NCBI GenBank assembly: GCA_020723305.1
Contig: DYJC01000012.1
Location: forward strand, 84,680 to 148,679
DNA length: 64,000 nt
Reading direction: 5' to 3'
DNA from: Desulfosudis oleivorans
GTDB lineage: Bacteria > Desulfobacterota > Desulfobacteria > Desulfobacterales > SURF-7
Shown here: positions 16,909 to 47,869 of the stretch, in pieces
Layout: each line of letters starts with the position of its first letter
How positions within the stretch are numbered: the stretch's first letter is position 1
The notes under the pieces: generated by a model
What the model was told of the DNA's origin: nothing
The model's input: only the letters and a program-made list of their open reading frames with translations
The model's database searches: none
Translations under genes and position numbers: made by a program

Positions 16909-18402
16909 CTATTCAGGATACTTTTTGTTGATATCGAAAAAGCGGGTCATATTTTTAAGAAAGAGATCTACGAGGTAAGGATCAAAATGTTTTCCACGCT
17001 CTTGTATTATTTTTTCAATGACCTGATCTTGTGGCCATGCTTTTTTATATACACGGCTGTGACTTAATGCATCAAATACATCCGCAAGACCCGTAATTCT
17101 TCCATAGATATGAATTTTCTCTCCTTTTAAACCCTGGGGATAACCATTGCCATCCCAATGTTCATGATGTTGCTGGGCTACAATGGTTGCGGCTTGCAGG
17201 ATTTTCCGTTTCGAACTTTTAAGGATTTCATGACCGATTCCACTATGGTTTCGAATGACAGCATATTCATCCAGTGTGAGTGCTGCCGGCTTATTTAAAA
17301 TTGCATCCGGAATCCCTATTTTCCCGACATCATGCATAGGAGAAGCAAGTTTTAAAAGTTCTGCCTCTTGTTCATCCAGGCCCGCCAACAGTGCCATTTG
17401 GAAAGAAAATTCGGCAACTCTTCTGACATGATTGACAAGTCCTTTGGAACGGGTATCAACGAGTTCACCCAGAGTAAAAATAATTTCCTTTTGTGTATCT
17501 ACGATTTCCTGGGATAAATATATATTATCATACACGATTGCAACATTGGAAGAAAATATTCTGATTAAATCTCTCTCCAGCTCTGTTAAATTTTTGCATC
17601 CATTCAGATAGATGAAATTCTGAGCTCCTGTTTTTGTGCTGAAATATCCGATATAGGCGTCATCGATAAATAATCCTTTTTTTCTTTCAAGGACGATATT
17701 TAATTGGTCTTGAATGGTGCTGGAAAGCACTTTATGGCCATCCTGATGAACTATGCTTTTAAACTCACCGGTTCCGGCCAGGATAGAGAAGTGATTGTTA
17801 TCAAGTAAGGCTGCAAAACCAGAAGCCTCTGAATTGGAGGTGCTTTTATCAAGATTCAGGATGGATGATATCTGGTTCAGGACTCCTGCTGTAAAATTTT
17901 CTAAAGAGTTGTGACTGAAAATGTGTTCGGATGAGTGGATAACCAATTCTAGAACACGTCTCGTTTTATCAATTGTTATAAGATCTTTATATGCTCGCAG
18001 CGATGCAGTAACGGTTGTATATAGTTTTCTGGATGTCAGTTCTGTTTTTTCTTTATACTCATTGATGTCATATTCCATAATGACATTTTGTTCAGGCGCT
18101 TTCCCGGGTTGACCGGTCCGGAGAATGACACGGATAAATTTATTAAGTAAGGTTTTTCTTATGTATTGGACAACCTCCAGCCCGGCATTCTCAGTTTCCA
18201 TCACCACATCTAAGAGGACGATAGCGATATCTGGATATTTTTCAACAAGTTCTTTTGTTTCTTTTCCTGAATAAGCACTGATAAATTCAAGCCGTCGACC
18301 ATCGAAAAGGTAATCTGAGAGAACCATTTTGGTGATTTGATGAAGCTCTTCTTCATCATCGGCAATCAGAATTTTCCAGGGGTTTTCATTTTCGTTTTTC
18401 AA
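16909..18402 (-). CDS. Response regulator with DUF3369 and HD-GYP domains
   Basis: 497 residues: receiver (1-130, phospho-Asp in AIVLLDVVMETENAG), a DUF3369-like GAF-type middle (about 150-300), and HD-GYP (about 305-490). HD is intact (MHDVGKIGIPDAIL) and so is GYP (HHEHWDGNGYPQGLKG), so it should hydrolyse cyclic di-GMP. The receiver implies control by an unlinked kinase. It is divergent, across 294 bp, from the repeat-protein/CsgG-like operon, suggesting c-di-GMP control of surface structures nearby (inference). Confidence 0.92.
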   Translation of the reverse strand: MKNENENPWKILIADDEEELHQITKMVLSDYLFDGRRLEFISAYSGKETKELVEKYPDIAIVLLDVVMETENAGLEVVQYIRKTLLNKFIRVILRTGQPGKAPEQNVIMEYDINEYKEKTELTSRKLYTTVTASLRAYKDLITIDKTRRVLELVIHSSEHIFSHNSLENFTAGVLNQISSILNLDKSTSNSEASGFAALLDNNHFSILAGTGEFKSIVHQDGHKVLSSTIQDQLNIVLERKKGLFIDDAYIGYFSTKTGAQNFIYLNGCKNLTELERDLIRIFSSNVAIVYDNIYLSQEIVDTQKEIIFTLGELVDTRSKGLVNHVRRVAEFSFQMALLAGLDEQEAELLKLASPMHDVGKIGIPDAILNKPAALTLDEYAVIRNHSGIGHEILKSSKRKILQAATIVAQQHHEHWDGNGYPQGLKGEKIHIYGRITGLADVFDALSHSRVYKKAWPQDQVIEKIIQERGKHFDPYLVDLFLKNMTRFFDINKKYPE

Positions 18403-18696
18403 TTTATCTCCTGATGGGCGGAATTTATTTTTATTATTACCAATTATTTAGAAAAAAAGCAATTCATCATGTTATTGTATCTGGAATGGTGACAGACTGA
18501 AAATTCAAACCTGCACTATCTATAACGATCCATGTAGCAGATTTCATATCTTTCGGGTGATTCATTTCATTGCATTTTGAAAAATCTTGGAGTATAAGAT
18601 CATCCATACTGGCAAAAAAGATACGAACAGTATCCGATAATTTTAGTCTGCAAGGCCAGAATCTAAACTTTAACAAAATAACAGGAGGAAAAAATC

Positions 18697-19302
18697 ATGA
18701 AGAAAGTAATTATTATGGTAATTGGAGTTCTTTTTTTAACAGCTTCCGTATCATTTGCGGAATCCACTGTATCGGGGAAAGTTATCAACAAGGCAGATGT
18801 TAAAGAATCCGCCAACATCGCAATCGGTGAGAATGCAAAAGCCAACATGGGTTCTGTAACCATGAAAGATTCCAGTGTATCTGGAAAGGTTGTGAATAAG
18901 GCAGATATTAAAGAATCCGCCAACATCGCAATCGGTGAGAATGCGAAAGCCAACATGGGTTCTGTAACCATGAAAGATTCCAGTGTATCTGGAAAGGTTG
19001 TGAACAAGGCACATGTTAAACAATCCGCCAACATCGCAATTGGTGAGAATGCAAAAGCCAACATGGGTTCTGTAACCATGAAAGATTCCAATGTATCTGG
19101 AAAGGTTGTGAATAAGGCAGATATTAAAGAATCCGCTAATATCTCATATGGTAAAGGCGCGACCGCGAATATGGGCGCTGTGACCATGAAGGATACCAAC
19201 GTATCCGGCAAAATTATTAATAAGGCCGATGTGAAAAAATCCGCTAATATCGCTATCGGTGATAAAAGCAAAGCAAACATGGGTTCTGTAACCACGGAAT
19301 AG
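18697..19302 (+). CDS. Secreted five-repeat protein, candidate fibre subunit
   Basis: 201 residues: signal peptide (MKKVIIMVIGVLFLTASVSF, cleavage after FAE) then five tandem repeats of 36 residues (18763-18870, 18871-18978, 18979-19086, 19087-19194, 19195-19299) and nothing else. Each unit contains VSGKVVNKADIKES and SANIAIGENAKANMGSV, alternating short polar and small residues as in beta-solenoid or amyloid repeats; NIAIGENAKA resembles YadA-type head repeats. Curli subunit CsgA likewise has a signal peptide and five imperfect repeats, though the sequence differs. AACAGGAGG precedes the start. First gene of a five-gene exported set that includes a CsgG-like protein. Self-assembly into a fibre is inference. 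Confidence 0.8.
   Translation: MKKVIIMVIGVLFLTASVSFAESTVSGKVINKADVKESANIAIGENAKANMGSVTMKDSSVSGKVVNKADIKESANIAIGENAKANMGSVTMKDSSVSGKVVNKAHVKQSANIAIGENAKANMGSVTMKDSNVSGKVVNKADIKESANISYGKGATANMGAVTMKDTNVSGKIINKADVKKSANIAIGDKSKANMGSVTTE
18763..19299 (+). repeat. Five tandem 108-bp coding repeats
   Basis: Units 1-3 and the first half of unit 4 are nearly identical at DNA level; the second half of unit 4 and unit 5 are diverged at many third positions while protein spacing is kept exactly. This suggests recent expansion of the N-terminal units. Confidence 0.9.
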
Positions 19303-19425
19303 TTTGATGAGATGACGAAATTTTTTCCAGGATCGGGTATGTTATCCCGATTCTGGAAAAAAGAAGCAAATTTTTTTCTATATGGTACGGCATTTTTATT
19401 TTTTGGTGGGAAAAAGGAGGTTATC

Positions 19426-19785
19426 ATGCGGAGTCGATTTTTTTTAACAATCGTGATTGCTACATTCTTTTTTGTTGCAGCAGGTGTTGGAGTAGCTGTG
19501 TGTGGTGATCAGGAAGATGGTATAGCGACGGATGATAACATTACGAGTTATGATGATCTTGGAGATTCAAACCAGAATATCAATTTTATCAAGTTGAACG
19601 CAAAAAGCAGCGCAAAACAAAGAGAAAAATCAGTAAAAAAGGGAACAAAATCGGATGATGGATCAGGGAAAAACGGCAGCGGTTCGATGAATAGCGTTAT
19701 TATGGGGCCTGGGTCAAACGTTAAGGGAGATATCATTATAATTGATGAGTCAAAAGGGGATAAGACACAGGTTGTTGATAAATAA
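19426..19785 (+). CDS. Small secreted protein with a single degenerate repeat motif
   Basis: 119 residues from the ATG at 19426, which has an excellent AAAAGGAGG site. Signal peptide MRSRFFLTIVIATFFFVAAG, cleavage probably near AVCG. The mature part is short, Ser/Lys/Gly/Asp-rich and low complexity, then MNSVIMGPGSNVKGDIIII. That segment mirrors MGSVTMKDSNVSGKVV of the neighbouring repeat protein, so it may be a minor subunit or nucleator. No known family recognised; function inferred from context only. Confidence 0.65.
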   Translation: MRSRFFLTIVIATFFFVAAGVGVAVCGDQEDGIATDDNITSYDDLGDSNQNINFIKLNAKSSAKQREKSVKKGTKSDDGSGKNGSGSMNSVIMGPGSNVKGDIIIIDESKGDKTQVVDK

Positions 19786-19851
19786 TTGATGAATCAAAAT
19801 AGAAAACACCAATGGTGTGGTTAACTTTATTGAGCGAATACAGGGTGAAAA

Positions 19852-21309
19852 ATGAATTATTTATTGGGTGAAATGATCAAAATGAAATGGATACGGTCGG
19901 TGCTATTTTTATCACTTTTCCTTTTGGTGCTGATTTCCTGTGCCAGTGTTGACCCAAGAAATGTGGATGTGGAAATCAAAGAAGAACCACCGACTGCCAA
20001 GATAACATCTTTTACCGAAACATTGCCTCTGCTTGGGAGGATGACGGAAATCTATTCAACACAGGAGTTGAGGGTTCAAAGCAAGGAAATCGCAGATAAT
20101 ACAGGTACATCAGGGGCAACTGGTGGCGAAATTCCACGGGATATTTCCGAAATGCTTCAAAGCACACTCAATTCCATTGGCGGGAAAGTTACATATGTTC
20201 CATATAATCCTGATTTTATTCAAAATCAAATGGTAACAGGGTATTCAACATTTGAGAATAAAACAATCCCAAACGTGGTGATCACAGGTGGAATAACTGA
20301 GTTTGACAGAGGCCTTGAAACCAGAGGGAGCAATGTGGACGCCGGGATAGCAGCAGATTTTTCCCATGCACCATCATGGACACCATCCAATACAGTAGCC
20401 GCAGATTATGGTACGGAAGAAAAATTCGGTTTGGCGAGCATCACACTTGATTTTAATATGATTGATTTTCAGTCAATGGCCGGTATTGCCAAAATGCAGA
20501 CAGTGAATTCGATCAAGGTCTCCAAGGCAGTCAGTGAAAAAGAATTGGCCATAACTCTTTTGGGCCCTACTTTTGGATTAAAGGGCTCCATTAAAAAAGT
20601 ACAGGGCCGGCACGCAGCAGTAAGGATGTTGGTTCAACTCAGCATGGTTCAAATTATCGGTAAATATCTTATGGTGCCATACTGGACACTATTGCCTGAA
20701 GCAAATCCGGATCCGGTAGTCATGGATGCAGTGAAAAAGGCTTTTATTAATATGAGTCAGGTTGATCGGATTATCAAGGTTCAGGAATTTTTATTTATTC
20801 AGGGATATGATGTCCGCATAACAGGCGAGCTTGATCAACAGACATTGACTGCACTTCAAAAGGTCAAACCCGGGGCTAGAACCATTGACAGGGAGACCTA
20901 TCTTGCTGTGTTTTTATCTGTACCGATCAACGATGATGTGTTTGAAAGACGCATAGAGCTTAACAAGGCTTATGCAGCAGCAGCGCTTGAGCAGAAAGCC
21001 AAAGCTGCTCGTGCCAAGAGGGAGCGGGAGGTCGCTGCAAAAAAAAAGGCGGCCAGACAGGAAGCGCCGGCTTCAGTTCCAACTCCTGAGTCGGAACCTA
21101 AGCCGGCTCCAGAGCCTGAGCTTAAACCAGCTCCAGAGCCTGAATCTAAACCTGCTCCAGAGCCCCAGGAAGTCGCGAGTGCTCCTGCTCCAAAAATAGA
21201 GAAGCAAGCTACTCCAAAAGAGGATCCATCCGTCAAAGAAGAGGAAAAGAAACCTTCAGCTACCAAGAAGGGTCTGGGTGGCACAGAGCTGTCTGAAGAA
21301 GAGTGGTAG
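19852..21309 (+). CDS. CsgG-like outer-membrane lipoprotein with PG-binding-like domain
   Basis: 485 residues. Lipobox LLVLISC gives a lipidated Cys. Residues ~40-290 look like CsgG/HfaB: NVVITGGITEFDRG, then ITLDFNMIDFQSMAGIAKMQ and a helical RMLVQLSMVQIIGKY. Known CsgG forms a nine-fold outer-membrane export pore for curli. A peptidoglycan-binding-like unit follows (VQEFLFIQGYDVRITGELDQ, then QTLTALQK), then a charged helix and Pro-Glu-Lys repeats (PEPESKPAPEP), all absent from E. coli CsgG. Starts at 19852, 19873 or 19882 are possible; the last gives a 20-residue lipoprotein signal. The CsgG assignment rests on pattern recognition, not alignment. Confidence 0.7.
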   Translation: MNYLLGEMIKMKWIRSVLFLSLFLLVLISCASVDPRNVDVEIKEEPPTAKITSFTETLPLLGRMTEIYSTQELRVQSKEIADNTGTSGATGGEIPRDISEMLQSTLNSIGGKVTYVPYNPDFIQNQMVTGYSTFENKTIPNVVITGGITEFDRGLETRGSNVDAGIAADFSHAPSWTPSNTVAADYGTEEKFGLASITLDFNMIDFQSMAGIAKMQTVNSIKVSKAVSEKELAITLLGPTFGLKGSIKKVQGRHAAVRMLVQLSMVQIIGKYLMVPYWTLLPEANPDPVVMDAVKKAFINMSQVDRIIKVQEFLFIQGYDVRITGELDQQTLTALQKVKPGARTIDRETYLAVFLSVPINDDVFERRIELNKAYAAAALEQKAKAARAKREREVAAKKKAARQEAPASVPTPESEPKPAPEPELKPAPEPESKPAPEPQEVASAPAPKIEKQATPKEDPSVKEEEKKPSATKKGLGGTELSEEEW

Positions 21310-21312
21310 ACA

Positions 21313-21708
21313 ATGTGTGCAAGCATGAAAATCACCGTTCAATGGATTATCTTTGTTGTTTTGATTTGTATATGCTTTGCCTCATCGATTTGGGCGGGAA
21401 ACAAGGCGATGGTGGAACAGAACACCAAAGAATTGGATGAAATAAACAAGCAGGCAGTCGGTCAGCTTTCTGATCTACCCAAAAATGGAACTGTAAAAAT
21501 AAAGGCCAACGCAAAATATAAAGAAGGTGTTATTCAGTTTGATGTCTATGACAAAAAGATCGTCTCCGATACCGAGGAAAAAGAGATTAAATTGGAGAAC
21601 AACAGTGATTTGAATGCCGGGTCAGTAAAAGAGGAAACCGTTAATATCAATAACTCAAACGACAAAACGAACAGGGAGAAACAAGGAAATGATCCCAAAG
21701 ATAATTAA
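21313..21708 (+). CDS. Small secreted protein of the CsgG-like locus
   Basis: 131 residues with a signal peptide (ITVQWIIFVVLICICFASSI, cleavage near WAG). The mature part is polar, with KNGTVKIKANAKYKEGVIQF and NNSDLNAGSVKEETVNINNS; the second resembles the NAKANMGSV...NV pattern of the repeat protein. The Asn/Lys-rich tail is likely disordered. It starts 3 bases after the CsgG-like gene and overlaps the next gene by 20 bases. No known family. Confidence 0.6.
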   Translation: MCASMKITVQWIIFVVLICICFASSIWAGNKAMVEQNTKELDEINKQAVGQLSDLPKNGTVKIKANAKYKEGVIQFDVYDKKIVSDTEEKEIKLENNSDLNAGSVKEETVNINNSNDKTNREKQGNDPKDN

Positions 21709-22438
21709 GTATTTTATCGTGGCAGCAGTTTGTATGGGGGTGATGGCTCACGCTGGTTGGTCAGGTAATAAAAGGATCATGACAATAAGAGCGGCTAAGG
21801 TGATGGCGGAAAGGGCGATTGTTGAATCAATATATGGATTGAAATTGAAGGCTACAGAAGAAGTCAAAGATATGATTCCTACGAGTTTCGAGGGCTCAAC
21901 AGAAACCAAGACAATGGCCAAAATCAAGGGAATAAGTTATGACGATATTGTCTATGATCAGGAGAAGGATATTGCCAAAGTTACTGCGTCAGTGGCTTTG
22001 GACACCATCACCAATATTGATGGAAAGGTAATGAATCTGAAGAATAAAGTTTACAAGAGGGTAGGTTTTGCAACATCCACTCCTGAAATGGCAGGTCCGA
22101 TAAAAGCTCTTCGTTCCGCTGAATTGGACGCCTATAAACAACTGATCAAACAGATTGTTGGTTTTACATTGGAAAGCCAAACCAAGGTTGAAAATTATAT
22201 GCTGAAATCCGACCTGGTAAAAACAAAGGTGCTTGCTACACTGTATCTTGCTGAGGTTACGGATTATGGCTGGGATAAACAAAATGATGCTTTTGTAAAA
22301 ATGTCGCTGAAGGTAAGTGAGATATCTGAAATCCTTGGAGAGACCATCGTAGATGGTGGTAAAGTGATTGAGGTTGAGGGCCAGGGGGCTCAGGAGGATG
22401 ATTTTTCTGCTGTTAAAAAAGCAGAGAAAAAACAATAA
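21689..22438 (+). CDS. Periplasmic protein with duplicated LPP20/FlgT-N-like domain
   Basis: 249 residues. Signal peptide MIPKIIKYFIVAAVCMGVMA then AHAG. The mature protein has two related halves, each beginning with an Ala-rich helix: TIRAAKVMAERAIVESIYGL and ALRSAELDAYKQLIKQIVGF. This helix followed by a strand carrying V and K alternation is typical of LPP20/FlgT-N-type domains. Such domains occur beside outer-membrane secretion machines. It overlaps the preceding gene by 20 bases and is the last of the five-gene set, followed by a terminator-like inverted repeat. Confidence 0.65.
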   Translation: MIPKIIKYFIVAAVCMGVMAHAGWSGNKRIMTIRAAKVMAERAIVESIYGLKLKATEEVKDMIPTSFEGSTETKTMAKIKGISYDDIVYDQEKDIAKVTASVALDTITNIDGKVMNLKNKVYKRVGFATSTPEMAGPIKALRSAELDAYKQLIKQIVGFTLESQTKVENYMLKSDLVKTKVLATLYLAEVTDYGWDKQNDAFVKMSLKVSEISEILGETIVDGGKVIEVEGQGAQEDDFSAVKKAEKKQ

Positions 22439-22545: not shown

Positions 22546-23091
22546 ATGCATGACGGTAAAAGCGCACTACAGATACGCTTACGAGAGCTTGTAAAAGATT
22601 GGAACAGGGCAGACAGATCTTTTCCTTCTCACAGTGAGCTGGAATCTTTCGGCAGGTTGCTTCTGAATTGGAAAAGTATGGAAAAGATAAAGGGCCTTTG
22701 GGATGAATCACCCCTGATGGTATCCACAACCCTGGATGATGGATTGGGGCAGGGGTTACGGATCATCCATCTGTACGCGGAAGTTGCCGGGCTCACGGTT
22801 ATGCCAATAGGCCTGCTTCAGCCGCCTGAAAAAATAATAGATGTCTGTAACAAGAATTTTCCGGATATATTGGGGTTGACAGTATTGCAATTTGATTCTG
22901 AAGAAATGGTTGTTAAAATTCGTCGGGCAATAGATCCAAACATTAAAATGATTGGAGGAGGGCCTGTTTTCTCCGCTGATTCAGAGTTTGCGAAACGAAC
23001 CGGTATAGATTTTGTAGCAAAAAATGTTGCTTCCTTTTTAGAATATCTCTTAGGGTTTGCCGGATCAGATCAACGGGCAATGGCATTTTGA
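22546..23091 (+). CDS. Cobalamin-binding-like Rossmann protein lacking the DxHxxG motif
   Basis: 181 residues. Residues 50-175 follow the flavodoxin-like B12-binding fold: VSTTLDDGLGQGLRIIHLYA, MPIGLLQPPEKIID, DILGLTVLQFDSEE, KMIGGGPVFS, and ending with VAKNVASFLEYLL. In place of the cofactor-ligating DxHxxG it has TLDDGLGQG, so it should not bind B12 base-off through His. The family appears in Deltaproteobacteria as a stand-alone protein of unknown role. The 3' end overlaps the convergent M48 protease gene by 22 bases. Confidence 0.65.
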   Translation: MHDGKSALQIRLRELVKDWNRADRSFPSHSELESFGRLLLNWKSMEKIKGLWDESPLMVSTTLDDGLGQGLRIIHLYAEVAGLTVMPIGLLQPPEKIIDVCNKNFPDILGLTVLQFDSEEMVVKIRRAIDPNIKMIGGGPVFSADSEFAKRTGIDFVAKNVASFLEYLLGFAGSDQRAMAF

Positions 23092-47427: not shown

Positions 47428-47518
47428 TGGCGGAGAGAGAGGGATTCGAACCCTCGGTACCAGTTACGGCACACACGATTTCCAGTCGTGCACCTTCAGC
47501 CAACTCGGCCATCTCTCC
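47428..47518 (-). tRNA. tRNA-Ser (anticodon GGA)
   Basis: On the minus strand the acceptor GGAGAGA pairs with TCTCTCC, with discriminator G and CCA encoded. The anticodon stem CACGA/TCGTG holds loop CTGGAAA (anticodon GGA, reading UCC/UCU). A long variable arm (around GTGTGCCGTAACTGGTACCG) and GGTTCGAATCC identify a class II serine tRNA. A T run follows the CCA. Confidence 0.95.
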
Positions 47519-47780: not shown

Positions 47781-47869
47781 CGGAGAGGGTGGGATTCGAA
47801 CCCACGATCCCGTTGTTACAGGATACCGCTTTTCGAGAGCGGGGCCTTCAGCCGCTCGGCCACCTCTCC
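47781..47869 (-). tRNA. tRNA-Ser (anticodon CGA)
   Basis: On the minus strand the acceptor GGAGAGG pairs with CCTCTCC plus discriminator G. The anticodon loop is CTCGAAA (CGA, reading UCG) in stem CCGCT/AGCGG; a long variable arm and GGTTCGAATCC are present. CCA is not encoded (CTC follows), unlike the GGA tRNA 260 bases downstream, so nucleotidyltransferase must add it. Confidence 0.95.

Follow-up and report, generated by a model that had tools for sequence, protein, structure and literature searches.

A five-gene locus of Desulfosudis oleivorans predicted to encode a CsgG/HfaB-type export system for a repetitive β-solenoid protein

Here, we describe five neighbouring plus-strand genes, at positions 18697-22438 of a 64,000-nucleotide stretch of DNA (the window) from the 5.4 Mb genome of a sulfate-reducing Desulfobacterales bacterium, whose products are all exported. 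They probably form an export system of the CsgG/HfaB type in the outer membrane, with a repetitive β-solenoid protein as its substrate and putative subunit of a surface fibre that would be tied to the cell wall. This reading builds on features that our analysis demonstrates, namely export signals, repeats, CsgG/HfaB homology, a probable PG-binding-type domain and conserved linkage of the genes. The locus and its flanks comprise the following features.

18697..19302, plus strand: gene 1, putative fibre subunit; signal peptide and five 36-residue repeats
19426..19785, plus strand: gene 2, small exported protein, putative linker or nucleator; lies between genes 1 and 3 in nearly all loci
19852..21309, plus strand: gene 3, lipoprotein, putative wall-anchored pore for export across the outer membrane; CsgG/HfaB-type domain at residues ~30-285, PG_binding_1-type domain at ~288-360, Ala/Pro/Glu tail
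21313..21708, plus strand: gene 4, small exported protein, putative accessory; kept together with gene 5
21689..22438, plus strand: gene 5, exported protein, putative periplasmic pore accessory; LPP20-type domain at residues 139-202 (LPP20 in relatives)
16909..18402, minus strand: REC-DUF3369-HD-GYP response regulator of the c-di-GMP phosphodiesterase type (Pfam), possible regulator, placed divergently
22546..23091, plus strand: B12-binding-fold protein (Pfam B12-binding, E 8e-10) adjoining gene 5, possibly linked
18541..18573, plus strand: conserved 33-bp element, ~123 bp upstream of gene 1

Gene layout and the secreted repeat protein

The first-pass annotation had described five adjacent plus-strand genes with exported products, closely packed from 19852 onwards, and ORF analysis bears this out: all five reading frames are present, each with a signal peptide or a lipobox. 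Genes 3 and 4 are 3 bp apart, and genes 4 and 5 overlap by 20 bp. For gene 2, position 19426 was preferred to 19312 as the start. The ATG at 19426, which gives a product of 119 aa, is the likely start because a GGAGG (SD) lies just upstream and homologues align from there. A minus-strand ORF at 18663-19427 was taken as a shadow of the gene 1 repeats rather than as a gene. Far downstream in the window, Rfam places two tRNA genes on the minus strand, at 47431-47518 and 47781-47869.

The product of gene 1 has 201 aa and was correctly read from the outset as a signal peptide followed by five 36-residue repeats (e.g. VSGKVVNKADIKESANIAIGENAKANMGSVTMKDSS). Its self-identity at lag 36 is 78%, compared with 24% for the best value at any lag in 1000 shuffles, and the repeats are near-identical, with 20-34 identical positions of 33-36; an N-x3-G element is present in most of them. 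AlphaFold2 folds the protein as an all-β solenoid (pLDDT 87.7, pTM 0.81; good in two of the five models). The strands supplied by one 36-residue repeat are the same as those supplied by the next, and gene 1 is thus predicted, with high confidence, to encode a β-solenoid. No cap domain was seen on it. The shortest homologue has 2 repeats (93 aa) and the longest 26 (972 aa), and the gene is often present as two tandem copies in homologous loci. Additional unlinked copies occur in two other genomes (G001 and G006), with genes 2-5 absent from the stretch read there. In another locus (L086:4925-7321), a 798-aa protein ahead of a gene 3 relative resembles a gene-2-like N-terminus fused to repeats.

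A Foldseek comparison of the gene 1 model with the PDB, suggested in the first-pass annotation as a check for β-solenoid relatives, gave nothing significant; the top entry, FapC, had an E-value of 0.005 and a TM score of 0.09, which is not usable, and ice-binding proteins were among the weak neighbours. No sequence relation of gene 1 to CsgA, CsgB or FapC was detectable, and a profile search did not match FapC chains. We set aside, as composition-driven, weak matches to the Pfam CsgE, YadA and pentapeptide families and to designed pentapeptide-type solenoids in the PDB. NCBIfam matches to toxin subunits covered only residues 1-30, that is, the signal peptide.

The CsgG/HfaB-type lipoprotein

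In the 485-aa product of gene 3, a lipobox is followed by a long domain that is conserved, a short one that is helical, and a tail of Pro, Glu and Ala. It carries the signal of an outer-membrane lipoprotein, a LISC-A lipobox whose Cys30 is invariant in 16 sequences and conserved to at least 90% in 26. When a profile of 26 gene 3 relatives was compared by hhalign with 11 CsgG/HfaB-family proteins (from E. coli, Aeromonas, Pseudoalteromonas, Hymenobacter, Caballeronia, Spirosoma, Rhizobium and Bosea, a relative's CsgG, and the HfaB-annotated proteins of Loktanella and Photobacterium), residues 18-281 aligned with CsgG residues 4-255 at E 4.5e-10 and a probability of 96.7%. The core domain alone reached E 1.7e-8; reversed and 20 column-shuffled gene 3 profiles gave E-values of at least 0.057, and gene 5 gave no match. 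The first-pass assignment of a CsgG-like lipoprotein as third gene thus stands, the CsgG match having come from profile comparison and not from structure. AlphaFold2, run on an alignment of five sequences, returned pLDDT values below 50 at residues 21-287, so that the CsgG fold rests on sequence profiles only.

Family models place gene 3 at a distance from characterized members. The window copy matched no relevant Pfam family above cut-off, PF03783 (CsgG) included, and PF03783 was sub-threshold in 12 of the 26 relatives (E 0.0014 or weaker). The top weak NCBIfam match was HfaB (NF037935), at 17.3 bits against a cut-off of 300 bits, and the best single-sequence matches were HfaB-annotated proteins (E 5e-6 and 1.1e-5). 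On a phylogenetic tree, a branch with 100/99 support separates gene 3 and its relatives from the CsgG/HfaB set, although the exact place of gene 3 is unsure because of long branches. Peaks of β-strand alternation lie close to the positions of the two membrane hairpins in CsgG. By sequence, then, gene 3 is a remote, full-length member of the CsgG/HfaB superfamily, in a clade apart from both CsgG and HfaB. The segment aligned by eye with what we take to be the CsgG constriction loop is ~5 residues shorter and is without the loop's aromatic residue, which suggests a different channel gate. Elsewhere in the same genome, Pfam CsgG matches span ~90-100 of the 210 positions of the family. The proteins concerned are larger, of other architecture, and have no curli genes recognised beside them; one of these matched gene 3 at only E 0.1.

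Of the further features noted in the first-pass annotation, the Pro/Glu-rich tail is present and the PG-binding-like domain is probable. PG_binding_1 (PF01471) is sub- or near-threshold in 9 of the 26 relatives (best E 9.8e-5), and the domain was assigned in the window copy by alignment to those nine and by its own model, in which confident helices at residues 288-355 are in line with a PG-binding domain.

Conservation, accessory genes and flanking elements

Among 96 related genomes, gene 3 has strong matches (E <1e-100) in 12; gene 1 is found in the same 12, with two further weak or partial cases, and gene 5 has strong matches in nine, all of them gene 3 carriers. Hypergeometric probabilities, uncorrected for relatedness, are 1.5e-13 for genes 1 and 3 and 1.7e-10 for gene 5 with gene 3. 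The carriers are spread over several families, and some close relatives are without all the genes. At wider range, gene 3 occurs in 27 of 292 genomes of the order and in 7 of 345 of the phylum. About 20 genomes, not all of them within the order, share the arrangement 1-2-3(-4-5); this agrees with the expectation that the genes would be conserved together in relatives. The full 1-2-3-4-5 arrangement is found in the genus, family and order and in one genome of another order of the same phylum, and six genomes have 1-2-3 without 4-5. In five distant genomes, gene 3 was seen by eye to be preceded by a secreted protein with repeats and by one resembling gene 2. There are exceptions: in one genome genes 1 and 2 are not beside gene 3, a Methylococcaceae locus has genes 2 and 3 with no gene 1 recognised, and in Azospirillum the gene 3 homologue adjoins an OmpA gene.

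The core of the locus is genes 1-2-3, and genes 4 and 5 are an accessory pair, absent in several lineages. Gene 2 encodes a conserved N-terminal acidic/NINFIKLNAKS segment, a Gly/Ser linker and a C-terminal NSVVMGxGSNVKGDIIIIDESKG segment; by hhalign, it showed no relation to CsgF or to the HfaA-like neighbours of HfaB-annotated genes. Its C-terminus looks by eye like a gene 1 repeat, a resemblance that was not significant on comparison. The products of genes 4 and 5 both have signal peptides. Gene 4 matched no Pfam family; LPP20 was found in 10 of 12 gene 5 members (best E 2.2e-10), the window copy being sub-threshold at E 1.6e-4. An apparent homology between genes 4 and 5 (E 2.7e-6) disappeared once the signal peptides were removed.

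On the upstream side, the REC-DUF3369-HD-GYP regulator occupies the same divergent position in G001 and G006 (another genus). The 33-bp element occurs once in its own genome and, in the window, G001 and G006, departs from the consensus by 1-3 mismatches, compared with 11-13 at best in shuffles. A weaker version (7 mismatches, shuffles at best 10) precedes an unlinked gene 1 copy of G006, and the matches of two more copies are close to or no better than chance. The element may be a regulator site common to the locus and the unlinked gene 1 copy. It holds two TTTCAT half-sites ~23 bp apart. Inverted repeats (TTTCACA...TGTGAAAT) that differ from the window's element lie upstream of gene 1 in three loci of another genus. 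A search for a riboswitch upstream of gene 1 returned no Rfam family at threshold.

On the downstream side, the B12-binding-fold gene is kept after gene 5 in the window, G001, G003 and G006. By eye, its product has LDDGLGQG in place of the canonical DxHxxG motif with the cobalamin-ligand histidine. Proteins that are small, exported and marked by a GRYQISxWG motif recur downstream of seven homologous loci, and the same regions hold proteins that look like head-GIN (DUF2807) and sometimes FHA proteins, possibly further parts. In two loci of a distant genus, gene-2-like genes and a gene 3 relative are followed by a large VWA-like-looking exported protein and an ABC transporter.

Proposed export mechanism and comparison with known systems

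In the mechanism we propose, the gene 1 product, which bears a signal peptide, would enter the periplasm by Sec and be kept unfolded, and would then leave the cell through an oligomeric gene 3 pore, as suggested by the full-length CsgG/HfaB homology and the lipobox. Once exported, the 36-residue repeats would stack, probably one layer each, and join end to end as a fibre. The gene 2 product, whose gene almost always lies between those of subunit and pore, would likely be a plug or nucleator and hold the base of the fibre to the pore. The PG-binding-type domain of gene 3 and its extended Pro/Glu tail would tie the pore to the wall, and some lineages may use the products of gene 4 and of the LPP20-type gene 5 as periplasmic accessories. 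Regulation through c-di-GMP and attachment is suggested by the divergent HD-GYP regulator.

The likeness of gene 3 to HfaB raises the alternative of a holdfast-anchor type of system, in which gene 1 would encode a short, pore-bound polysaccharide anchor and not a long fibre. HfaABD is known to anchor the holdfast (PMC6707917), the closest single matches of gene 3 are HfaB-annotated, and in the HfaB-annotated locus of Loktanella, too, the gene before that of the pore encodes a small exported protein. Nevertheless, we consider this unlikely: genes 1, 2, 4 and 5 showed no relation to the neighbours of two HfaB-annotated genes; some versions of the repeat protein are longer than 900 aa, and there are extra unlinked copies; and polysaccharide genes were not recognised within the five-gene stretch.

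LpoB and FlgO are models for a lipoprotein with a CsgG-like periplasmic domain, and gene 3 could be imagined as a periplasmic scaffold of this kind, bridging outer membrane and wall, with gene 1 as a solenoid strut. The PG-binding-type domain, the long Pro/Glu tail and the LPP20-type neighbour would suit such a role, and many Pfam CsgG matches are proteins other than curli pores (PMC3521004). We regard it as quite improbable, however, given that the gene 3 match spans both membrane-hairpin regions of CsgG, with β-alternation there, and that the genome's other, short proteins with Pfam CsgG matches differ from it, as judged from the one compared. It would be more surprising still if gene 1 were secreted by the pore and acted as a monomeric solenoid (an adhesin, or an ice- or mineral-binding protein) without forming a fibre. 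The model is indeed a single-chain solenoid with ice-binding proteins among its weak neighbours, but widely variable repeat number, near-identical repeats and the lack of a cap are as expected of stackable subunits.

Beyond the preferred reading of a fibre exported through a CsgG/HfaB-type pore, we tentatively raise the possibility that the locus represents a separate class of functional amyloid, with a wall-anchored CsgG-type pore, a solenoid subunit of 36-residue layers unrelated to curli or Fap, and with gene 2 as its nucleator and gene 5 as its periplasmic accessory, present in several Desulfobacterota lineages and beyond. The locus would be a CsgG-type secretion lineage with an unrelated substrate, and the rules of subunit recognition and release could be compared across independent solutions. 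It would also supply candidate genes for surface fibres in sulfate reducers, a group with few known fibre proteins and one in which attachment and biofilms are important; gene 1 would be a naturally repeat-scalable (2-26 repeats) protein material.

As in curli (type VIII secretion, CsgA-CsgG), the gene of a CsgG-superfamily lipoprotein adjoins those of small secreted repeat proteins of variable repeat number. Unlike in curli, the 36-aa repeats have another motif, the pore protein bears a PG-binding-type domain, and an LPP20-type accessory protein is present. The curlin repeat (PF07012; QX10Q type motif) is absent from gene 1 and from 10 locus-bearing genomes, CsgF (PF10614) was found in none of the 10, with positive E. 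coli controls in both cases, and hhalign detected no relation of genes 2, 4 and 5 of the locus to E. coli CsgE. Of the curli-like fibre system first proposed, the CsgG/HfaB-like pore protein, the PG-binding-like domain, the exported repeat protein and the conservation of the gene set find support; by sequence, 'curli-like' holds only as a working analogy, and the subunit is not a curlin.

Pseudomonas Fap (FapC/FapB) offers a parallel in repeat length (39 residues, against 36 here), in N-x3-G, and in the arrangement of one layer per repeat, known for FapC (PMC12392863) and also suggested by the gene 1 model. However, the Fap repeat motif, X15GX4NX3GX6NX7 (PMC3792158), was absent as a regular expression from all 14 gene 1 proteins searched, and no fap genes were recognised in the locus. 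A CsgG-like protein with PG_binding_1 and DUF4384 domains from Azospirillum (WP_111069504.1) can be aligned over ~60% of gene 3 at 22-24% identity and has a similar domain order, but its neighbours are OmpA genes, with no repeat subunit recognised beside it. A 2025 screen for curli and fap operons demands their own repeats (PMC12822426), and would thus not report the five-gene set, which the first-pass annotation regarded as undescribed and for which we found no published description in the open-access literature.

Caulobacter HfaABD shares with the locus a CsgG-like lipoprotein, HfaB, and gene 3 is slightly nearer to HfaB-annotated proteins than to CsgG. It differs in that gene 3 lies far under the HfaB model cut-off and has an extra C-terminal domain, and in that no HfaA or HfaD relative was recognised by comparison with the neighbours of two HfaB-annotated genes. 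Since the locus would operate in the manner of curli and the holdfast anchor but, beyond the pore superfamily, shares the tested defining features of neither, we class it as a variant within CsgG-type export.
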